From contig JAUYTF010000236.1 in assembly GCA_030695285.1 (NCBI GenBank), positions 1-10,134 on the forward strand: a stretch of 10,134 nucleotides of DNA, written 5' to 3'. Below, in pieces: positions 1 through 10,134 of this stretch. The translations under genes and the position numbers were made by a program. Position 1 is the stretch's first letter. Every line of letters begins with the position of its first letter. This stretch comes from Eubacteriales bacterium (lineage in GTDB: Bacteria > Bacillota > Clostridia > Christensenellales > CAG-138). The notes under the pieces are model-generated. The model was not told the DNA's origin and did not search any database. It saw nothing but the letters and a program-made list of their open reading frames with translations.

Positions 1-1342
1 GCAGCGGATCGTCGGGATATTCCCCGCTTTCCACCCAGCCGCCGATGAGATTCGTCAGCACGCGCCGAAAGTATTCATGCCGCGCAAACGAGAGAAAGCT
101 GCGGCTGTCCGTCGTCATGCCTAAAAAACGCCCGAACAGCCCCTGTGTCGCCAGCAGGCGCATCTGCTCGATCATGCCGTCGCGATGGTCGTTGATCCAC
201 CATGCAGAACCGACCTGAATATTACTCGGGTAACTGCTGTTCTGAAAATCCCCCGCAAGCGACATCAGCGCGAGATTATCTTTATGGTTCAATCCAAAGA
301 GAACCGTCTTTGGCAGTTCACCGCTTGTGTTCAACTCGTCTAAAAACGCACCCAGCGCATCTGCGAGCGGATGATCGGAAACAGAGTCAAACCCCGCATC
401 CCGCCCGCATAGCGCCGTCATGCGCTTATTTCGCGCGCGAACGGGGCCAATGTGCAGCTCCATCACCCAATTGCGCCGCGCATACTCGCCCGCAAGCCAG
501 CGCAGCAGCGCTGTCAGGTATTGGTCGGTCGCTTCTGCGGATACCGTTCCGCCTGATAAAGCGCGGGAGAATATCGCCTCGATCTCCCGATCGTCTGCCG
601 GTGCAAAGGGAAACCGCTCCATACCAAAATCGCTCGCAACACATCCAGCCGCAGCAAACGCATCCATGCGCAGGCTGAGCGCCTGTTTCAGCGTTGAAAA
701 GCTCGAAGTTTCTACGCCTGAGACGGATGAGAGCCTTTGCAGATACGCCCGCCAATCGCTGCCACGCCAGAGCTCGCCCGCCTTTTCCGGCCGGAACGCA
801 GGCAAAACCTTCACTGGGAACTCAGATTCGTTCGCGAGCTTCCGGTGCCAGATCAAATCATCCGCCGGATCCTCCGTGGTGCAGAGCGCGGTGACCCGCG
901 CGCGCAACAACAGCTCGCGCGGAGAAAAGCCGCCCTGCGCTATTTTATCGTTCGCCTTTTTCCAAATCTCAACCGCCGTATGGATGGATAACGGCGCACA
1001 AATGTCAAAATACCGCCGCAACTCCATGTGGCTCCAGTGGTAGAGCGGGTTCCCGATGGCGTATGGGAGCGTTTCGGCATAGGCGCAAAACTTGTCATAG
1101 TCCGGCGCGTCTCCCGTGATGAGCCGTTCCTCAACGCCGTTTGCGCGCATAAGCCGCCACTTATAGTGATCCGCGCCCAGCCAAAGCTGCGCGATATTCT
1201 CCGCAGGTTTGTTTTCGAAGATTTCTTTTGCACTTAAATGATTATGATAATCCACAATTGGCTGGCGCGATGCGACCTCGTCATATAATCGCCGCGCTGT
1301 ATCGTTATGAAGAAAAAAGTTCTCACCAATGAATGATTTCAC
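1..1342 (-). CDS. uxaC: Uronate (glucuronate) isomerase UxaC, 3' end cut by window edge
   Basis: This enzyme isomerises D-glucuronate to D-fructuronate (and D-galacturonate to D-tagaturonate), the cytoplasmic entry step of hexuronate catabolism. I translated the minus strand from 1342 to 2 and found 447 codons with no stop or frameshift. It matches UxaC throughout: metal-binding HxH at residues 33-35 in DYHNHL, GADHYKWRLMRANG at about 57-70, GNPLYHWSHMELRR near 95-110, ELHIG near 295-299, AWWINDHRDGM near 379-390, and TDSRSFLSFARHEYFRR near 411-427. Compared from memory with the 470-residue E. coli enzyme, about 20 C-terminal residues lie outside the window. The start is GTG at 1342; its GTGA overlaps the stop of the upstream LarA gene, and GGAGGT sits five bases before it, inside the end of that gene, so the two are probably translationally coupled. 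It is the fifth gene seen in the operon. Family assignment is secure; preference for glucuronate over galacturonate is inferred from the mannonate oxidoreductase neighbour. Confidence 0.96.
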   Translation of the reverse strand, partial: MKSFIGENFFLHNDTARRLYDEVASRQPIVDYHNHLSAKEIFENKPAENIAQLWLGADHYKWRLMRANGVEERLITGDAPDYDKFCAYAETLPYAIGNPLYHWSHMELRRYFDICAPLSIHTAVEIWKKANDKIAQGGFSPRELLLRARVTALCTTEDPADDLIWHRKLANESEFPVKVLPAFRPEKAGELWRGSDWRAYLQRLSSVSGVETSSFSTLKQALSLRMDAFAAAGCVASDFGMERFPFAPADDREIEAIFSRALSGGTVSAEATDQYLTALLRWLAGEYARRNWVMELHIGPVRARNKRMTALCGRDAGFDSVSDHPLADALGAFLDELNTSGELPKTVLFGLNHKDNLALMSLAGDFQNSSYPSNIQVGSAWWINDHRDGMIEQMRLLATQGLFGRFLGMTTDSRSFLSFARHEYFRRVLTNLIGGWVESGEYPDDPL

Positions 1343-2634
1343 AAGCTACCTCCTTCTCGCTCAAAGCGCGCGCGGTCGATCCATAACCCCAATGCCGGGT
1401 TCGGAATGAAAAAGATCTCTTCGCCGCTTGGCAGGGTGTTATAGCCGTATTGCAACGTATTCGGATCATAGCGCCGCAGCTGCTCGCTGATATCCGCCGA
1501 GGCATAGCCAACGCGCTCTATTTGCGCGCACATTTCATCCGACACCGCGTAGGTGACTCTAAAGCGCCCGTCGCTGGAGCCGTGAATCAGGTGCGCGGCA
1601 GCGCTGCGGTTTTCGCGCAGGTCTGCGCATGCCGGGTCTTGCAATAGCTCCAGCACCTGTTTTCTCCCGCAATAACCATATTTGCGTATCAACGCATCCA
1701 CCTGCCTATCCTCGCCAAAAATCTCCACGCCTGGCGCGAGAATGAGCAGTTCGCCATCGTCGGCCACCGCCATGCGCGTGCGGTAGATCGCCTTGTTGCC
1801 AAGCCATGTGCTGTGGAACTCATTTGGATCGAGATAGACCACGCATTTTTGAATACCGCGCGGCACAAAGTCGATATTCTTATGCTGAGACAGCGCAACC
1901 GCCGCCGTGAGCGCGTCCCGCTCCCGCCCGCAAAAGAGGCCGTGCGTCAGCGTCTTTCCCTCCGGTGCGGTGGTGACAGTCAGCAGGAAGAGAATCGGAC
2001 GCTTGCAAAAAAAACGCTCCAACGCATAGTCAAACACTTTACGCACGGGCGAATAGTCCCGCCCCATCACGCGCTCCATGCCGTAGATCGCGCCGAGCAT
2101 ATGTGATTTGTTGATCATCTCAGCGCCGCCCGCGCCGATAAACACGTTCTTTGCGTGGTTTGCCATGCCGATAACCTCGTGCGGCACCACCTGCCCCGGC
2201 GAGAGGATGAGATCATACGACTCGTCCATGAGCATGCGGTTGACTTCTACGGCGATGGGTTCCGTCCAGAGCCCATCTGTGAAAGCACCCATCACCCCAC
2301 CCGGCACCTCGCCGATTTTGACCACGTCCGTGCGCCAGTTATGCGCAAAAAAGCGTTCAAACGGAATCTCGCCGAACATATCGTTTGCTTCCGCCCGTGT
2401 CATGGCGCGGTGTGTGCCGAGCGTCGGCAAAATATCCACCACTAAGCCTTGTCCTGTATAGTATTCGAAACAGACACGCGTCAGAAACCCGGCTTTGCTG
2501 TGGAAACGCGAGAAATCCGGTGGCAGAATGAGCACCTTTTTCGCCGGATGTTTCGAAAGCAGCACGAGAAGACCCGCACGCAGTTCGTCGTCGGACAATC
2601 CCGCTTCATCTTTTGCGCGAAGGCACAATTCCAT
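1339..2634 (-). CDS. LarA-family (DUF2088) nickel-pincer hydroxyacid racemase/epimerase, candidate mannonate/gluconate 2-epimerase
   Basis: This 431-residue protein belongs to the lactate racemase LarA family, cytoplasmic enzymes that invert the alpha carbon of 2-hydroxyacids with a covalently bound nickel-pincer nucleotide. Visible landmarks are PPDFSR (38-43), GTHR with H75, VPH with H152, K162 in HAKNV, and H178 in NKSH. In the Lactobacillus plantarum enzyme, as I recall it, the catalytic histidines are H108 and H174, the cofactor lysine is K184 and the nickel ligand is H200; the spacings H-10-K-16-H are identical here, so the protein should be active rather than degenerate. Characterised family members include malate racemase and D-gluconate 2-epimerase. 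D-gluconate is the C2 epimer of D-mannonate, and the gene sits between mannonate oxidoreductase (5-base gap) and uxaC (overlap), so a hexonate substrate is more likely than lactate. The exact substrate is inference. The cofactor-making larB, larC and larE genes are not in the window. A GGGAG ribosome binding site overlaps the upstream gene's end. Confidence 0.88.
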   Translation of the reverse strand: MELCLRAKDEAGLSDDELRAGLLVLLSKHPAKKVLILPPDFSRFHSKAGFLTRVCFEYYTGQGLVVDILPTLGTHRAMTRAEANDMFGEIPFERFFAHNWRTDVVKIGEVPGGVMGAFTDGLWTEPIAVEVNRMLMDESYDLILSPGQVVPHEVIGMANHAKNVFIGAGGAEMINKSHMLGAIYGMERVMGRDYSPVRKVFDYALERFFCKRPILFLLTVTTAPEGKTLTHGLFCGRERDALTAAVALSQHKNIDFVPRGIQKCVVYLDPNEFHSTWLGNKAIYRTRMAVADDGELLILAPGVEIFGEDRQVDALIRKYGYCGRKQVLELLQDPACADLRENRSAAAHLIHGSSDGRFRVTYAVSDEMCAQIERVGYASADISEQLRRYDPNTLQYGYNTLPSGEEIFFIPNPALGLWIDRARFEREGGSL

Positions 2635-2639
2635 GATTC

Positions 2640-3491
2640 TTATACTCCCGAATAGGCAGAAAATCCGCCGTCTATGGCGAGCACCGTGCCGGTTACAAAG
2701 CTCGAGGCGTTGTCATCGAGCAGAAAGAGCAGCGAGCCTAACAGTTCTTCTGCCTCGCCAAATCGCCCCATCGGCGTGTTTTTAAGTATCTTCATCGCGC
2801 GCGGGGTCGGTGTTCCGTCTTCGTTCCAGAGGAGCTTTGCGTTCTGCCCCGTCGAAAAAAAGCCGGGCGCAAGCGCGTTGACGCGGATTCCGCTCTGCGA
2901 AAAATAGACCGCAAGCCAGCGTGTGAAATTTGAAACCGCCGCCTTTGCCGCCGAATACGCCGGAATCTTGGTCAAGGGCGTAAAGGCATTCATCGAGGAA
3001 ATGTTCACGATGTTGCCCTTGCCGCGCTCGGCCATATCGCGCGCAAACACCTGCGTGGGCAGCAGCGTACCCGTTAAATTCAACCCGAACACGAGGTCAA
3101 ACCCCGCAGGTTCCAGGTCAAAGAAGCTCTTCTTCCCTTCACCGATGGATTCGATGCGATCAAAAAACTCGTCGTCCGTGGTCGCCGTCGGTTTGTTGCC
3201 GCCCGCGCCGTTGAGAAGAAAATCGCACGGACCATACGTTGAAAGCATGTCCTCGTGCGCACGCATCAAGTTCTCCGCATCCGTCACGTCCGCAACGACC
3301 CCCAGCACTTCGCCGCCTGCCTCGCGAATTTCCCGCTCCAGCGCGCGCACTTTTACTTCGGTATGATCGAGAACGACCATCTTCGCGCCGCACTGCGCCA
3401 GCGCTTTTGCAAACAGTCTGCAAAGCACGCCAGCCGCACCCGTAATCACAATCACTTTATCCGAAAAGTCCGGCTTGTATGGCAGATTCAT
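2640..3491 (-). CDS. SDR-family D-mannonate oxidoreductase (fructuronate reductase, YjmF/UxuB-like)
   Basis: A 283-residue classical short-chain dehydrogenase, the usual length for the YjmF-type D-mannonate oxidoreductase of Firmicutes, which reduces D-fructuronate to D-mannonate. The N-terminal Rossmann motif is TGAAGVLC (17-24); a Cys replaces the usual final glycine, a variant I recall in this subfamily. D42 after the second strand favours NAD(H) over NADP(H). The NGAG motif is at 94-97, N138 is the structural Asn, and the catalytic triad is S166, Y179 and K183 in YSAAK. A long insertion at about 100-130 (rich in D, E, K and F) between NGAG and N138 fits the hexonate-oxidoreductase group. 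The start is ATG with AAGGAG five bases upstream, 8 bases after the gnd stop; 5 bases separate its stop from the LarA gene. The SDR assignment is certain; the substrate rests on resemblance plus the uxaC neighbour, and a different polyol or hexonate cannot be excluded. Confidence 0.88.
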   Translation of the reverse strand: MNLPYKPDFSDKVIVITGAAGVLCRLFAKALAQCGAKMVVLDHTEVKVRALEREIREAGGEVLGVVADVTDAENLMRAHEDMLSTYGPCDFLLNGAGGNKPTATTDDEFFDRIESIGEGKKSFFDLEPAGFDLVFGLNLTGTLLPTQVFARDMAERGKGNIVNISSMNAFTPLTKIPAYSAAKAAVSNFTRWLAVYFSQSGIRVNALAPGFFSTGQNAKLLWNEDGTPTPRAMKILKNTPMGRFGEAEELLGSLLFLLDDNASSFVTGTVLAIDGGFSAYSGV

Positions 3492-3499
3492 AGCGCTCC

Positions 3500-4951
3500 T
3501 TATACGGTATAGGTCGAGGCTGCGGTGTCTCCGCCCTCGCCCGTCCAGTTGGTATGGTGAAACTCCCCGCGCGGGCGGTCGAGCCGCTCGTAGGTATGCG
3601 CGCCGAAGTAGTCCCGCTGCGCCTGCAAGAGGTTTGCGGGCAGGCGCTCGCTCGTGCAGCCGTCAAAATAGCTCAGCGCCGCGCTCATTGCGGGAACTGG
3701 AATGCCATAGAGCACCGCCGCCGAGACGACCTTTCGCCAGGCGGATGTGCAGGATTTTAAGATGTTTACAAAATACGGGTCGAGCAGAAGGTTGGGCAAC
3801 AGAGGATCGCGGTCAAACGCTTCCTTGATTTTTCCCAGAAACGCGGAGCGGATGATGCAGCCCCCGCGCCACATCAGCGCAACGCCGCCGTAGTTGAGAT
3901 TCCAGCCGCTGGTCTTCGCCTGCGCACGCATGAGCGCATAACCCTGCGCATAGGAGACGATCTTGCTGGCATAGAGCGCCTGCCGGATAGCGTCGATCAG
4001 CGCGGTCTTGTCTCCGGATAACTGCGCGGTTACGCGCGGATAGACCTTCGCGGCGGCTGTCCGCTCGTCTTTCATTGCGGAGAGGCAGCGGCTAAAGACC
4101 GCCTCACCGATGAGCGTGAGCGGAACGCCCTCGTCAAGCGCGGCCGTCACCGTCCATTTCCCCGTGCCCTTCTGCCCCGCCGTGTCGAGGATATTGTCCA
4201 CCAGTGCGCCGCCGTCCGCGTCTCGATAGGCCAGAATATCCCGCGTGATCTCGACGAGATAACTATCCAGCTCGCCGCGACTCCAGTCGGCAAACACCTC
4301 GCTCATCTCCTCGGCGCGCATGCCGAGCATATCCCGCATGAGCTGATATGCCTCGCAGATGAGCTGCATGTCTCCGTATTCGATGCCGTTGTGTACCATT
4401 TTGACGAAATGCCCCGCGCCGTTTTCACCGACCCAGTCGCAGCAGGGCGTGCCGCCGTCCACCCTGGCGCAGATGCTTTGGAAGATGGGCTTGACCAGCG
4501 GCCACGCGGCAGGCGAACCGCCGGGCATCATGGAGGGTCCCTTCAGCGCGCCCTCCTCGCCGCCCGAGACGCCGGTGCCGATATAGAGTAATCCTTTGCT
4601 CTCCACATACGCCGTCCTGCGAACGGTATCCGGAAAATGGCTGTTGCCGCCGTCGATGATCACATCCCCCGGCTCGAGTACGGCGAGCAGTTTTTCGATA
4701 GAGTCGTCCACCGCCTGCCCCGCCTTGACCATGAGCATCACCTTGCGCGGCTGAGTCAGCGCATCTTTTAGTTCGGCGAGCGAACGGCAGCCGACGATGT
4801 GCTTGCCCCTCGCGCGTCCGGCTAGAAACGCATCCACCTTGTCCGTGGTGCGGTTATACACCGCCACGCGAAAGCCCTTACTCTCCATATTCATGACCAG
4901 ATTTTCGCCCATGACGGCGAGCCCGATCAGCCCGATGTCTGCTTGACTCAT
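3500..4951 (-). CDS. gnd: 6-phosphogluconate dehydrogenase, decarboxylating
   Basis: Oxidatively decarboxylates 6-phospho-D-gluconate to D-ribulose 5-phosphate and CO2 in the cytoplasm. The 483-residue length is that of the full-size enzyme. The N-terminal Rossmann domain has GLAVMG (10-15) and NRT (33-35), the latter typical of NADP+ binding through the 2'-phosphate. The substrate-binding GGNS is at 101-104, GVSGGEEGA at about 127-135, catalytic K184 and E191 lie in HFVKMVHNGIEYGD, DTAGQKGTGKW is near 255-265, and RLPANLLQAQRDYFGAHTYE is near 435-454. All key residues are present, so it should be active. It starts at ATG 4951 with GGGAAGGG upstream, 12 bases after the kinase stop, and precedes the SDR gene by 8 bases. 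A 6-phosphogluconate dehydrogenase inside a uronate operon is unusual for the KDG route but has a precedent in the Bacillus subtilis gluconate operon, where gntZ encodes the same activity; it points to 6-phosphogluconate being made locally. Confidence 0.96.
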   Translation of the reverse strand: MSQADIGLIGLAVMGENLVMNMESKGFRVAVYNRTTDKVDAFLAGRARGKHIVGCRSLAELKDALTQPRKVMLMVKAGQAVDDSIEKLLAVLEPGDVIIDGGNSHFPDTVRRTAYVESKGLLYIGTGVSGGEEGALKGPSMMPGGSPAAWPLVKPIFQSICARVDGGTPCCDWVGENGAGHFVKMVHNGIEYGDMQLICEAYQLMRDMLGMRAEEMSEVFADWSRGELDSYLVEITRDILAYRDADGGALVDNILDTAGQKGTGKWTVTAALDEGVPLTLIGEAVFSRCLSAMKDERTAAAKVYPRVTAQLSGDKTALIDAIRQALYASKIVSYAQGYALMRAQAKTSGWNLNYGGVALMWRGGCIIRSAFLGKIKEAFDRDPLLPNLLLDPYFVNILKSCTSAWRKVVSAAVLYGIPVPAMSAALSYFDGCTSERLPANLLQAQRDYFGAHTYERLDRPRGEFHHTNWTGEGGDTAASTYTV

Positions 4952-4963
4952 ATAACCCTTCCC

Positions 4964-6031
4964 TCAGCGCTTGACGCGCGCGTTGCCGGAATAAATGCTC
5001 CAAACCTGCTCTTCATCGGCGGGCGTGGCATAATCGTTTCGATCGGTCACGGCAAGCGCGCCGCATGCCCAGCCAAAGCGCAAGCACGCCTCCGGTTCCC
5101 AGCCGCGATAGACGCCATAGAGCAGTCCGCCGGTGAATCCGTCCCCGCCACCGATGCGGTCGAGTACGGGTATTCTGCGCGGCTGCTCGACAAAAAACAC
5201 TCCGTCCGCTGAGAGAATCGCGCCCCAGAGGTGCTCGTTTGCGTTCTCCACCTCGCGCAAGGTGGTTGCGAAGTACCGCGCGCATGGATAGGCGGCTCGC
5301 GCCTGATCGATCATACCCTTGAACCCGTCAATCTTCGCCGCGAGGTCTTTGCCGCCCGCTTCGGGGCCTTGTATGCCTAGGGCAAGCTGAAAATCCTCCT
5401 CGTTGCCAATCAGAATATCCGATATGGACGCGATCTGATGAAACACTTCCCTTAGCGTGCGCTCGCGACCTTTCCAGAAGGACGCGCGATGGTTCAGGTC
5501 GAAGCTGATGCGCGTTCCGTATCCTTTGGCGCGTTTGGCAAGCTCTGCGCAGAACACGGCCGTCTCGGGCGAGAGCGCGGCGATGAGGCCGGAGAGATGC
5601 AAAATGGCAACGCCCTCCTGCCCAAAGATGCGCTCTGTATCAAACTCGTCCATCGAAAGTGTGCGCCCGACCTCGCCCGCGCGGTCGTTCCAAACGCGCG
5701 GCCCGCGCAGGCCAAAGCCGCTATCTGCGATGTTAAACTGATGGCGATAGCCCCAGGGCCCACCCTGCGGCACGCTGATACCCTCAAAGCGAATGTTGCG
5801 CGCGCGCAGTTCGCTCTGGAGAAACAGCGAAACTGGGCTGCCTTCGATAAACTTGGTGAGCACCAGGCATTCATGTCCCAGCGAACTTGCGATGTTGAGC
5901 ACGTTGCTCTCCGCGCTCGTAGACGTCATGCGAAACAGGCTGCTCGTGTGCACACTCTGTCGCTCTTCGGGCGTGATGCGCACGCCCATGCTCGTTGGGC
6001 AGGCGATGGCATAGCGCGGTGCGTTTGGCAT
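4964..6031 (-). CDS. PfkB-family sugar kinase (KdgK-like; substrate possibly KDG or a hexonate)
   Basis: A 355-residue PfkB/ribokinase-fold kinase. The C-terminal signature DRIGGGDGFTGG (291-302) carries the anion hole and catalytic base D297, NEED is at 210-213, and SFDLNHRASFWKG at 176-188 is the strand and loop before the ATP site. SAESNVLN (39-46) corresponds to the substrate-side glycine/alanine motif. The sequence resembles proteins usually labelled 2-keto-3-deoxygluconate kinase, but its N-terminus (CPTSMGVRITPEERQ) lacks the common GE start motif of KdgK. In context it either phosphorylates KDG made by a UxuA encoded elsewhere, or D-gluconate to feed the adjacent gnd; the second option is inference. 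I chose ATG 6031, preceded by GGGGAAGGA at four bases. An in-frame TTG at 6091 would add 20 residues but places the -10 box inside the coding region, so I rejected it. It is the first gene of the five-gene operon. Confidence 0.86.
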   Translation of the reverse strand: MPNAPRYAIACPTSMGVRITPEERQSVHTSSLFRMTSTSAESNVLNIASSLGHECLVLTKFIEGSPVSLFLQSELRARNIRFEGISVPQGGPWGYRHQFNIADSGFGLRGPRVWNDRAGEVGRTLSMDEFDTERIFGQEGVAILHLSGLIAALSPETAVFCAELAKRAKGYGTRISFDLNHRASFWKGRERTLREVFHQIASISDILIGNEEDFQLALGIQGPEAGGKDLAAKIDGFKGMIDQARAAYPCARYFATTLREVENANEHLWGAILSADGVFFVEQPRRIPVLDRIGGGDGFTGGLLYGVYRGWEPEACLRFGWACGALAVTDRNDYATPADEEQVWSIYSGNARVKR

Positions 6032-6070: not shown

Positions 6071-6102
6071 ATTATAGACATTTTTGATCAAATGATTGTG
6101 AA
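6071..6102 (-). promoter_or_regulatory. Candidate promoter of the kinase-gnd-SDR-LarA-uxaC operon
   Basis: On the minus strand a perfect TATAAT lies at 6076-6071, which would place the transcription start around 6064 and give a 5' leader of roughly 33 bases before the kinase ATG with its ribosome binding site. No good -35 box is seen at the standard distance; TTCACA (6102-6097, five of six matches to TTGACA) is 20 bases upstream, too far for an optimal promoter. This suggests a weak or activator-helped promoter. It is the only promoter-like element seen between the upstream terminator and the operon. Confidence 0.6.
6083..6092. promoter_or_regulatory. TTTGATCAAA palindrome in the promoter spacer, candidate operator
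   Basis: A perfect 10-base inverted repeat lies seven bases upstream of the -10 box, between it and the candidate -35 region, with flanking bases that partly extend the symmetry (CATTT on one side, AAAAATG on the other on the minus strand). A repressor bound here would block RNA polymerase. The motif does not match the ExuR/UxuR or KdgR consensus that I know, so no regulator is proposed. A 10-base palindrome in AT-rich DNA can occur by chance. Confidence 0.35.
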
Positions 6103-6319: not shown

Positions 6320-7153
6320 TTAGAGTTCGGGCTTCTCGCGATAATAAAAATACTCGCGATCGAAAATCGCATAGTACAAAAAGCGCGGCAGCTTGTCGTA
6401 ATACGGCTGTAGCTCGCGCATAACCGCCGTCTGCGTCTCGTGCGCGCGCGTCACCGCATAGCGAGTGTTTCGCCAGCGATAGATGTTCACGGCAACATTC
6501 GGCCGCGGCAAGCCGCGCGCGGGATCGTAGCGCTCACGGAATGTCCTGCTCATCTTCATCGCAAGCGAGAGCATGCCGCTAGGCAGCGTCATTTGAAACA
6601 CGCCTTTTACGCCAGCCAGCTCTTTGGCAGCGCAAACGGCGGCTTTTCCCGCGGCGACGTGATCCGTGTGTCCGTACATGCCGATGCTCTCATCGAACGT
6701 AAAGATATAAGTCGAGCCCAGCGCCTCCGCCGCGTTCCAAACAGTCTTGCAAACCGCGTCAAAGTCCTGATTCGCCAGATAGCGGTCGGGATAGTCACAG
6801 ATCGTCACCCCGTCGAGCGAAAGTAGCTCCTTTACGCGCGCAAGCTCCTGCGTGCGCCGTTCTTTTAGTCCGTTTTTTGGCACGAGGTCGAAGGTCGGGC
6901 CGTCCTCGCCATGCGTCAGATAGAGCGCATGAACCGGCAGGTGATAACGCTGCTTCAGCAGCGAGAGCGTGCCGCTCATGAGTACCTCGTCGTCCGGATG
7001 CGCAACAACGTAGAGAATGCGGTCGTCCTTGGTGAAGCGTACCCGCCGAGTCAGGCGCGGCACGCCGAACTGATTGACAAACCCGTTGGCAAAGGCAAGC
7101 GCGGCACAAACCAGCGCAAGCAGCGCAGCTATAACGATGATGAGCGGAATCAT
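6320..7153 (-). CDS. PIG-L/LmbE-family deacetylase with N-terminal membrane anchor
   Basis: A 277-residue member of the PIG-L (LmbE-like) family, zinc enzymes that remove N-acetyl groups from GlcNAc-type sugars and related compounds. The zinc motif AHPDDE is at 51-56 and the second zinc site GHTDH at 161-165, with the usual THGEDG at 80-85; all are intact. Residues 1-22 form one hydrophobic segment with no charged residue before it and a basic cluster after it (R33, R36, R37, R39), which by the positive-inside rule would leave the catalytic domain in the cytoplasm, tethered to the membrane. Its ATG overlaps the symporter stop as ATGA, so it is probably translationally coupled to the transporter and may act on the imported sugar. 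The natural substrate is unknown. Family confidence is high, role low. Confidence 0.9.
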   Translation of the reverse strand: MIPLIIVIAALLALVCAALAFANGFVNQFGVPRLTRRVRFTKDDRILYVVAHPDDEVLMSGTLSLLKQRYHLPVHALYLTHGEDGPTFDLVPKNGLKERRTQELARVKELLSLDGVTICDYPDRYLANQDFDAVCKTVWNAAEALGSTYIFTFDESIGMYGHTDHVAAGKAAVCAAKELAGVKGVFQMTLPSGMLSLAMKMSRTFRERYDPARGLPRPNVAVNIYRWRNTRYAVTRAHETQTAVMRELQPYYDKLPRFLYYAIFDREYFYYREKPEL

Positions 7154-8478
7154 AGTGCGTCTGCCTTCTTACGATTCAGCTGAAGCATGACGAAGAAGCC
7201 AACGATTGCAAACACCGCCGCGATAGGCGCAACGATGGTAATGCCGAGCGATTGCTCCGGCGAGCTGCCCAGCAGATCGTGCAACACGCCGACGGCGAAT
7301 GAAGCAAACGCGGTCGCGAGCTTATTGACCAGCCCCTGCACGCCAAAGAACATCGCCTCGCGGCGCACTTCGAAGCGGCGGTAGTCGTCGTCGATAATCT
7401 CTGAGACGAGTACGTTGGGTATGACCATCAACCCGCTGTATGGAAATCCCAGCAGCGCCATCAACGCAAACCCAAGCACTGTTCCCGAAATACTGCCGAT
7501 CTGCGGCAGTGCCATGATGAGCAGCGCAACCAGCGCATAGCTCGCCATGGAGATCATCAGCGACTTGACCGTGCCAAACCTTTTGACGAACACATTGTAC
7601 AGAGGAATGAACGCAAGCGCACACACCACCGACACAATAAAGAGCGTACTTGCCATACCCTTTTCCAACCCCAGCGAAACGGTCGTTACAAACGCAAGGT
7701 TGTATTGAATCAACTGGAAGCCGATGAAAAACGTTGCAAACCCGATGATGTATTTGACAAATTTGTCGTTTTGAAACGCGCCGACGATGTTTTTAAACAA
7801 GTTCTTCGTCTGGTTTGGGGCAGGTGCCGGAACATAGTCCTTGTTGACTTTGATGATCAGCGCGGGGATCACCATCACCAGCGCGCAGATGACACTCAGC
7901 GCGATGCCTGCGCCGAGATAACCCACCGCATTGATGAGAAAACCGGACGCACCAAGCGCAATTCCCATACCGAGAATGCCAAACACAGACACAAAACTCT
8001 GGATGAAAACTCGTTGCTTGTCGTCCTTGGCAATCTCCGGAAGCAGCGCAAAATACGGATTGACCACGACGGTATAGAAGAAATAGAATCCGTTGAGGAA
8101 GATAAACAGCCAAATAAACCGCGCCAGCTCGGTCTGTGCCATCTGCGGCGTAAGCCAGACCATAAGGAAGCAGAAGATCATCGGCAGTGTGCCCAGCAGC
8201 ATAAATGGCAGCCTGCGTCCCATGCGCTTTCCGCGAATATTGTCGCTCCAGTTGGCAACCAGCGGATCGGCCACGCCGTCCATTATGCGCCCGACCAGCG
8301 TTGCGGTGCCAACCAGTGTACCGGAGAGAATGGGGTCTCCCGCGTTGCCGGTCATGAAGAGCAGCAACCATGTGGTGATAAATTGGCTGAGCATACCCGG
8401 GCCAAGGTGGCCGGCCGCATATGCAATCTGCCTGCCGCCCTTGAGCTCGCGATAAGGGGTGTTGGGAAGTTGTTCCAC
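7150..8478 (-). CDS. GPH-family (MFS) glycoside/pentoside/hexuronide:cation symporter
   Basis: A 442-residue integral membrane transporter of the GPH group, which couples import of glycosides, pentosides or hexuronides to Na+ or H+. About 12 hydrophobic segments are visible. The family signature DGVADPLVANWSD (67-79) followed by GRRLPF (87-92) marks the second-third helix loop, and RREAMFFGVQGLVNK (372-386) is the equivalent motif in the C-terminal half. I chose GTG 8478 because AGGAGG lies eight bases upstream; a longer in-frame start at 8670 would run back into the upstream glycosidase gene and adds a non-membrane tail unlike the family. An ATG a few bases upstream of the GTG is in another frame. 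The 49-base gap to the upstream gene holds no terminator. Neighbours suggest an oligosaccharide or uronide substrate. Confidence 0.92.
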   Translation of the reverse strand: MEQLPNTPYRELKGGRQIAYAAGHLGPGMLSQFITTWLLLFMTGNAGDPILSGTLVGTATLVGRIMDGVADPLVANWSDNIRGKRMGRRLPFMLLGTLPMIFCFLMVWLTPQMAQTELARFIWLFIFLNGFYFFYTVVVNPYFALLPEIAKDDKQRVFIQSFVSVFGILGMGIALGASGFLINAVGYLGAGIALSVICALVMVIPALIIKVNKDYVPAPAPNQTKNLFKNIVGAFQNDKFVKYIIGFATFFIGFQLIQYNLAFVTTVSLGLEKGMASTLFIVSVVCALAFIPLYNVFVKRFGTVKSLMISMASYALVALLIMALPQIGSISGTVLGFALMALLGFPYSGLMVIPNVLVSEIIDDDYRRFEVRREAMFFGVQGLVNKLATAFASFAVGVLHDLLGSSPEQSLGITIVAPIAAVFAIVGFFVMLQLNRKKADAL

Positions 8479-8527
8479 GTTGTCATCCTCCTGTTGATAT
8501 TTTTTAGTTTGGTATCGTGATCCCTGT

Positions 8528-10134
8528 TTATCGAAACACACCGCTTGCGCTTTCGCGCTCCATGGCAAATGACGCAAACGCACTCCAGCCCTGCAGCATT
8601 CCGCCCGCGGGATAATAGGGCGAAAAATACTCCACAGGCGTAGCAAAGCACTGCTCGAGTCCGATTTCATACCAGCGCGTCAGCGCATAACGGTATTCCA
8701 TGCCGTTGACCTTCTTGGCAAAGGCGTAGAGTGAAGAAAGATATGGCCAGTCCGCGCCGTTGTGATAGCGCAGCGGATCCGCACTTTTTTCGACGAGCCG
8801 CGAAGATGAGGCATACGGCGGATAGACGCAGAGCGTGCCAACTTCGCCAAAGCGCGCATTGTTCTGCGTCTCAAGCAGCGCTTCCATGCGCGAGAGCATC
8901 CGCTTTGCGCGCTCCGGCGAGGCGATGTCGAAGAGCGCGGCAAACACCGTGTCAAGAGAGAGGTTTGTCTCCGTCTCCTCCGGCGTTTTGAAGTTGACAT
9001 AGTATCCAAGTTCCTCACACCAAAGCTCGCAGTTGACGCCCTCCTTTATGTTCTCCGCCGCCTCGGCATACCGCGCGGCATTCGGCAGCAGCGAGCCACC
9101 AAGGCGAAGCGCGCCGAACGCGAGGCACTGAATATAGGTCACATATCCCTCGCGAAACACGTTGTCCGCCCAGTCGTGCCGCGAGGCGGGCGCGCGCGTG
9201 AGCAGCCCGTTTTCATCCAGCGCTGCGGTGGTTTGATTCAGAATATTCGCCAGCTTTTGCGCGATTTGAGCTTCGCGCAGGATGCCGGAATCACCCGTAT
9301 TGGCAACATATGCATACAAAAGCAGCGCAAAGAACAGCGGGCTGTCCGTATGCTCGAGCCACCACGGCGCGCCATGTGCGTCCACCGCGGAACCGCAGGA
9401 GCCGTCGTCCGCGATGCCGCGCGCGAGAGTGACGAGCTGCTCTTTCACCCAATCCGGTCGATACGGCAGCACGACAAGCGCGGTGTAATACCCGTCGCGA
9501 TAATATGTACGCGCGGGTGCGGCGTAGTTCACGCCCGCAAAGAAGCCCGAAAAGCCCTCAAAGGACTTATAGCTCGAAAACGCGGCATTGAGTGCATAGG
9601 CCTTAAACGCGGCATCCTCGCCGGATTTCGCCGTGGAGAGTAGCATGGCAAAATACGCCTCGGCGTCCGCCTCCGCCTCGGCGGCGGAGCCGAGCAGCGC
9701 GTCCTGTGCCAGCATCAGGCCAAGGTCAAAGGCAAGCGTGAGTTCGGCAAAAAACGCATCCCGCCGGGCTTGGGCATTCTCGGTTGCGGTATAGTGCAGA
9801 TAATCCCCCTCGCACTCACGCAGCGTCAACGGTGCGGAGCAAAGCAGATGAAGCCGCTCCGGCAGGCACTGCACGCCAAAGTTGTACTCCAGCGAGAACG
9901 GACGGCAACTTTCTGCGCAAAGCCGCAGGTAGAGCACGGGAAAATCGGAGCTAAGAAACCATCTTGCTGTGTAGACAACCTCGCAGAGGGTAAACTGCGT
10001 CTCCTGTACGCGGCCGTATGCGACGACCTGCCGCTCGGTGGTCGGGTCATCCGGCGCGCGCCTGCCGCAGACGCCATAGTGTCCGCCCGCTAGTACCGCA
10101 TCGTAAGAACCGCTGTGTGCGAGCTTTATCAACC
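8528..10134 (-). CDS. Putative (alpha/alpha)6-barrel glycosidase, N-terminus outside the window
   Basis: About 535 residues are visible, ending at TAA 8528; the frame is open to the window edge, so the N-terminus is missing (an in-frame TTG at 10132 is not a convincing start). Residues 1 to about 130 look beta-rich, as in an N-terminal sandwich domain; the rest looks like an (alpha/alpha)6 barrel of the glycogen-debranching type. Motifs with candidate acidic catalytic residues are YRDGYYTA (211-218), WWLEHTDSPLFF (257-268), RHDWADNVFREG (318-329), YHNGADWPYLSSLYA (456-470) and FSPYYPAGGMLQGWSAF (503-519). The pattern RDG, HTDSP and HNGADWP recalls amylo-alpha-1,6-glucosidase-like proteins, but I cannot place it in a specific GH family. 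No signal peptide can be judged. With a GPH symporter next to it and an uronate operon downstream, it probably splits an imported oligosaccharide, perhaps uronate-containing; this is inference. Confidence 0.6.
   Translation of the reverse strand, partial: LIKLAHSGSYDAVLAGGHYGVCGRRAPDDPTTERQVVAYGRVQETQFTLCEVVYTARWFLSSDFPVLYLRLCAESCRPFSLEYNFGVQCLPERLHLLCSAPLTLRECEGDYLHYTATENAQARRDAFFAELTLAFDLGLMLAQDALLGSAAEAEADAEAYFAMLLSTAKSGEDAAFKAYALNAAFSSYKSFEGFSGFFAGVNYAAPARTYYRDGYYTALVVLPYRPDWVKEQLVTLARGIADDGSCGSAVDAHGAPWWLEHTDSPLFFALLLYAYVANTGDSGILREAQIAQKLANILNQTTAALDENGLLTRAPASRHDWADNVFREGYVTYIQCLAFGALRLGGSLLPNAARYAEAAENIKEGVNCELWCEELGYYVNFKTPEETETNLSLDTVFAALFDIASPERAKRMLSRMEALLETQNNARFGEVGTLCVYPPYASSSRLVEKSADPLRYHNGADWPYLSSLYAFAKKVNGMEYRYALTRWYEIGLEQCFATPVEYFSPYYPAGGMLQGWSAFASFAMERESASGVFR

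Follow-up and report, generated by a model that had tools for sequence, protein, structure and literature searches.

Among described systems, the UxaR-regulated operon aldH-pelB-gnd-uxaRED-gntEK of Thermotoga maritima (PMC3750489) brings together a kinase, a reductase and Gnd with a gluconate 2-epimerase of the LarA family, and directs hexuronates into the pentose phosphate pathway. A proposal of the sequence mannonate, gluconate, 6-phosphogluconate is credited to Rodionova 2012 in PMC6978723. The same paper deals with an isomerase/phosphoketolase hybrid route in L. suebicus, which leads from hexuronate via mannonate and 6-phosphogluconate to ribulose 5-phosphate and is redox neutral; it was demonstrated by enzyme assays, with the kinase acting before the epimerase, and its key genes are not named there. 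PMC7583248 (2020) reports that the epimerases GntE1 and GntE2 were assayed and epimerise mannonate, with group 18 of the LarA family (LarA18) only hypothesised to use a hexonate, and PMC11770544 adds a eukaryotic GntE.

Here we analysed a window of 10,134 nucleotides, which is one whole contig (G000:C303) of the draft genome G000 (2.54 Mb, 515 contigs, 93.8% complete, 2.7% contaminated). It holds a five-gene operon that differs from the T. maritima operon in several respects. The epimerase belongs to LarA group 20 in T. maritima and to group 18 in the window, the kinase is GntK in the former and a PfkB kinase in the latter, and uxaC is located elsewhere in T. maritima but inside the operon in the window. 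In addition, T. maritima has a separate kdgAK-uxuBA operon, whereas uxuA and eda were not found in the window genome. The L. suebicus route would share its intermediates with that of the window, the latter being known from genes alone. The original prediction knew of no description of such a route as a single operon, which the T. maritima operon (PMC3750489) contradicts. In principle such a route was known before, and the window is a variant of it; new here are the kinase family, the job proposed for LarA group 18, the position of uxaC in the operon, and its occurrence in Spirochaetota and Acholeplasmataceae, with carriers that for the most part have no glucose 6-phosphate dehydrogenase (G6PDH).

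The five-gene operon and the proposed route

All five genes lie on the minus strand, separated in the direction of reading by gaps of 12, 8 and 5 bp and finally by a 4-bp overlap, in which the GTG start of uxaC covers the larA stop. The PfkB-family sugar-acid kinase (4964..6031; PF00294), a proposed gluconokinase or mannonate kinase, starts with ATG at 6031, and its frame also offers a TTG at 6091. It is followed by the NADP-dependent 6-phosphogluconate dehydrogenase Gnd (3500..4951; TIGR00873, 738 bits, cut-off 427), an SDR D-mannonate oxidoreductase, that is, a fructuronate reductase (2640..3491; NF006132, 411 bits, cut-off 281), the LarA18 epimerase, proposed to be a mannonate/gluconate 2-epimerase (1339..2634; NF052594, a model named 'nickel-dependent putative hexonate epimerase', 586 bits, cut-off 500), and the uronate isomerase UxaC (2..1342; NF002794, 531 bits, cut-off 387). 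The C-terminus of UxaC is cut by the contig end, up to which its Pfam model matched as far as position 444 of 464. Four of the five enzymes thus exceed curated NCBIfam cut-offs, the kinase being the exception: its best NCBIfam model gives 148 bits where 700 would be required. The gene order, the tight co-directional packing and all five family assignments of the original prediction are hence confirmed, as is the presence of D42 in the SDR translation and of an NRT motif in that of Gnd; D42 suggests that the SDR uses NADH.

Upstream on the same strand, and separated from the kinase gene by 288 bp, are a PIG-L family deacetylase (6320..7153; PF02585), an MFS/GPH-type sugar symporter (7150..8499; PF13347; TIGR00792 at 129 bits, below its cut-off of 231) and a glycoside hydrolase-like protein of the GDE_C/trehalase-like type with a cut 5' end (8528..10132; PF06202, 30 bits, cut-off 21), for which a search for PDB relatives with E < 0.5 returned none. 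Together they may form a supply module that provides glucuronate from a glycoside. Folding of the 288-nt gap was no better than that of shuffled sequences (z -0.84), and scans of the window for promoters (6 promoter-like stretches, 4.1 expected) and terminators (14 terminator-like, 12.7 expected) stayed near chance. In G002, a genome of the same genus, homologues of the PIG-L, symporter and glycoside hydrolase-like genes directly precede SDR-LarA-UxaC (L102), and kinase-Gnd is found on a different contig (L133). Because of this separation, the operon looks as if it combined two modules, one for supply and the upper pathway, the other made up of kinase and Gnd.

On the basis of gene content, gene order, recurrence, co-occurrence, conserved residues and the failure to detect UxuA, Eda and G6PDH, from which we infer every catalytic step, including what the kinase phosphorylates and whether it acts before or after the epimerase, we propose that the products of the operon probably form a linear pathway of D-glucuronate catabolism, which passes through free gluconate and ends in D-ribulose 5-phosphate and CO2. 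UxaC would convert glucuronate into fructuronate, which the SDR would reduce with NADH to D-mannonate; LarA18 would invert C2 to yield D-gluconate, the PfkB kinase would act as a gluconokinase and form 6-phosphogluconate, and oxidative decarboxylation by Gnd would release D-ribulose 5-phosphate, CO2 and NADPH. The net conversion would be redox neutral, with reducing power moved from NADH to NADPH. Given that no G6PDH was detected in G000, Gnd would there serve sugar-acid catabolism rather than glucose oxidation. This scheme, put forward by the original prediction, is supported: of the readings considered, it agrees best with what the sequences show.

Recurrence of the locus and gene content of its hosts

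Loci were gathered by a contig scan with alignment of close LarA relatives, and the best 80 of 584 confirmed stretches were compared, many of them short contigs whose neighbouring genes were scored by protein similarity. Among these 80 of 584, 56 have Gnd encoded on the same strand within 3.5 kb and 38 the kinase within 4.5 kb of LarA; the SDR was found at 26 loci, and UxaC, within 3.5 kb, at 18. When the count is confined to the 56 of the best 80 loci that extend 5 kb or more on the 5' side, Gnd is present in 44 and the kinase in 35, invariably together with Gnd; 12 hold neither by these distance limits, among them L037, where both lie further off, and L071, where Gnd is on the other strand. 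Carriers of LarA18 include Clostridia, Acholeplasmataceae (L044, L050) and Spirochaetota (L053, L055, L057, L058, L063, L064), and many come from ruminant gut samples, according to the record titles. The five-gene arrangement is not a chance one and recurs in other families and phyla. Against the gluconate-first route speak the 9 of the 44 Gnd loci (from the best 80 of 584) that have no close kinase homologue nearby, and the presence within 8 kb of LarA of UxuA in 3 and of Eda in 4 of the best 80 of 584.

A mannitol-dehydrogenase-type reductase occurs within 8 kb in 11 of the best 80 of 584 loci, including all six from Spirochaetota, where it is near the kinase in 6/6; judged by gene content, the reductase step is apparently swapped but kept there. 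Of the best 80 of 584 loci, 16 carry the tagaturonate epimerase UxaE no further than 8 kb from LarA, from which we conclude that galacturonate probably enters the route in many hosts. Another input or hexonate pair might accordingly be the principal one, for instance galacturonate via tagaturonate, with glucuronate one substrate among others or not the main one, and the assignment of LarA18 to hexonates is itself a hypothesis in PMC7583248. The window, however, holds no UxaE, and 6-phosphogluconate is the substrate of the Gnd family. Fructuronate and mannonate are reached by way of UxaE as well as UxaC, so that the lower half of the route would stay the same, and we regard a different input as very unlikely for this operon. 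As side observations, a Cof-type HAD phosphatase is found within 8 kb of LarA in 17 of the best 80 of 584 loci, often between Gnd and LarA (for example L010:3981-4970), and the Gnd reading of L064:8477-9931 (G090) falls into two pieces, with a single TGA in frame.

At the genome level, 50 LarA18-positive genomes (our own, those of 12 relatives and 37 others to which the loci led) were set against 13 of the 48 LarA18-negative relatives. Gnd exceeds its cut-off in 50/50 of the former and 1/13 of the latter; since the 37 locus genomes had been chosen for carrying Gnd close to LarA, a fair test has to stay within our own genome and 25 relatives, in which Gnd is present in 13/13 with LarA18 versus 1/13 without. 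The single Gnd match of G000 is the operon copy. G6PDH was found in 4/50 positive and 0/13 negative genomes, UxuA in 10/50 (7 of full length) and 0/13, and Eda in 29/50 and 7/13; all three are jointly missing in 20 of the 50. By these counts, LarA18 is accompanied by Gnd, but not by a lack of UxuA and Eda. Searches of the 93.8% complete G000 draft yielded no match for UxuA, Eda or G6PDH and, judged by those for UxuA and Eda, this genome appears to lack the canonical UxuA/KdgK/Eda glucuronate pathway. The search of G000 thus did not bring up uxuA or eda, which the original prediction had named as refuting if placed immediately downstream; their absence by itself we discarded as evidence, as LarA18-negative relatives lack both genes equally often.

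The kinase and its relation to KDG kinases

The kinase has a PfkB fold (PF00294), which places it outside the FGGY and P-loop gluconokinase families, so that its function alone, not its family, could make it a gluconokinase. T. maritima GntK, in comparison, belongs to the FGGY family. FGGY kinases that score below the gluconokinase cut-off, a strict threshold that was reached in only 2/14 control genomes, occur in 56/63 genomes; G000 encodes five of them, and another gluconokinase may be present there, for example among these five. A match to the PfkB kinase of at least 375 bits was obtained in 49 of the 50 LarA18 genomes; in G007 a contig end leaves a fragment of the kinase, with 81% identity. 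Of the 13 LarA18-negative genomes, only G003 has it, beside Gnd (L132, G003:C21), in a neighbourhood that by eye resembles that of L133 in G002.

Its nearest solved sequences and folds are the PfkB-family KDG kinases 2afb and 1v19, and several of its relatives carry the source name 2-dehydro-3-deoxygluconokinase. If the protein were an ordinary KDG kinase and the operon a KDG pathway in altered arrangement, in which LarA and Gnd serve other purposes, this similarity would be accounted for, and in G063 the kinase comes immediately after Eda. The G063 locus, however, holds UxuA and Eda (both over cut-off), Gnd, LarA and a separate KdgK-like kinase before Eda; with both kinases in one locus, the kinase studied here is an addition to KdgK. 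In a phylogenetic tree, a branch supported at 100/100 separates 47 kinases of this type from 17 KdgK-like ones, a split that is in part by construction because the groups were picked by score, and 16/17 of the KdgK-like kinases come from stretches holding Eda. In close homologues of our kinase from the best 80 of 584 loci, by contrast, Gnd is no more than 300 bp away in 45/46. The original prediction would be refuted by a kinase active only on KDG; on the sequence side, this grouping apart from the kinases near Eda speaks against that case.

Both groups share the fold, R117, R182 and the catalytic D297. Positions 39, 40 and 115, which presumably lie at the substrate side, are S, A and N in 46/46 kinases of this type compared; in KDG-type kinases, position 39 is G (21/21), position 40 is G (19) or A (2), and position 115 is Y (15) or S (6). 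On the evidence of the G063 locus, of the kinase grouping and of the searches of G000, in which neither UxuA nor Eda was matched, we reject the KDG-kinase reading, which we consider scarcely probable.

Other kinases were encountered in individual loci. Tandem PfkB kinases precede Gnd in L068:6293-8524, the second forming a very long branch in the tree. In L077:4291-12580, an FGGY kinase whose frame is interrupted into two pieces is situated between SDR and LarA; its candidacy as a replacement of the PfkB kinase is weakened by a different PfkB-family kinase (PF00294, IolC-like, 93 bits) about 200 bp after LarA, and the locus, in which a ManD-like dehydratase (419 bits, cut-off 550) precedes Gnd, is ambiguous and slightly lowers our confidence in the gluconate-first route. 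PPi-phosphofructokinase-like and HAD-like genes adjoin Gnd in L067:676-2858 and L071:6609-8840, two loci without this PfkB kinase. We dismissed the PPi-phosphofructokinase as the missing kinase, as it fits sugar-phosphate metabolism better.

The epimerase, the order of the middle steps and the nickel-pincer cofactor

In an alignment to 4nar, residues R75, K184 and H200 as well as D72, H108, H174 and K298 of LarA correspond to R43, K162 and H178 and to D40, H75, H152 and K281 of the window protein. The NPN-binding and catalytic residues are invariant in 93/93 close relatives, and the structure model of LarA18 is nearest to GntE2, with 25% identity over the structural alignment. LarA18 has in common with GntE1 and GntE2 (LarA group 19/20) the fold, the NPN and catalytic residues, the EV/S loop and the tryptophan of helix 11; it differs in belonging to group 18, in often residing in genomes without LarB, LarC and LarE, and in being known here from sequence alone. 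We propose that LarA18 is a mannonate/gluconate 2-epimerase. In some loci from Kiritimatiellae, Victivallales and Verrucomicrobia (L012, L031, L038, L049, L052) this LarA is found without Gnd or the kinase nearby, which suggests another use of the epimerase.

The middle steps could also run in the reverse order, with the PfkB protein a mannonate kinase and LarA18 epimerising 6-phosphomannonate to 6-phosphogluconate. According to PMC6978723, mannonate is phosphorylated with ATP to 6-phosphomannonate in L. suebicus extracts, 6-phosphogluconate also gives rise to this product, and no gluconate was formed from mannonate in 0.5 h. In agreement, the KM values of assayed GntE enzymes for mannonate are 17 and 120 mM in PMC7583248, so high that these enzymes may in truth act on something else, for example the phosphate ester. 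On the other hand, the fold of LarA18 is closest to GntE2, which uses free mannonate. Moreover, LarA18 was not found in G003 (same genus; one draft, 94% complete), and the possession of kinase and Gnd without this epimerase suits a kinase for gluconate, not for mannonate. We therefore judge the reverse order unlikely and retain epimerisation to gluconate before phosphorylation.

A further point against this gluconate-first route in G000 is the lack of LarB, LarC and LarE over cut-off: searches of this genome gave no match for LarC (PF01969), and those for LarE (TIGR00268, 28 bits) and LarB (NF033503, 39 bits) remained far below the cut-offs and probably hit other proteins of the same superfamilies. 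The three proteins are a requirement of the known NPN cofactor route, not of the LarA fold. Among the 50 LarA18 genomes, 17 have all three over cut-off, 4 a part and 29, mostly drafts, none, compared with all three in 3 of the 13 LarA18-negative genomes. The 29 include G000, the isolate Peloplasma aerotolerans and 6/6 Spirochaetota, and their nickel-pincer residues are equally invariant. On the LarA18 tree, no fewer than 7 changes along well-supported branches are required to account for the lack of LarB, LarC and LarE. Ordinary LarA homologues likewise occur in genomes negative for LarB, LarC and LarE, for example three in G006. In 20 regions around ordinary LarA genes of such genomes, with neighbours judged by eye, no stand-in for the three proteins was recognised; shared neighbours were inositol, malic-enzyme and Etf/lactate-dehydrogenase-like genes. 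PMC11796402 describes the opposite case, LarB, LarC and LarE without LarA in about 15% of genomes, and our literature search, which covered few subscription papers, found no report of LarA without them. Whether LarA18 and ordinary LarA homologues work in cells that lack LarB, LarC and LarE, either by uptake of NPN from neighbours or with NPN or a different cofactor made by an unknown route, is in our estimation evenly balanced. If they do, the glucuronate operon depends on a community-supplied or unknown organometallic cofactor, which makes the source of nickel cofactor for LarA enzymes testable where the three proteins are missing.

If the proposed route is correct, it gives a role to LarA group 18 and to a group of PfkB kinases, and would explain why Gnd is retained in bacteria without G6PDH. 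It would also extend a hexuronate route independent of UxuA and Eda across Clostridia, Acholeplasmataceae and Spirochaetota.
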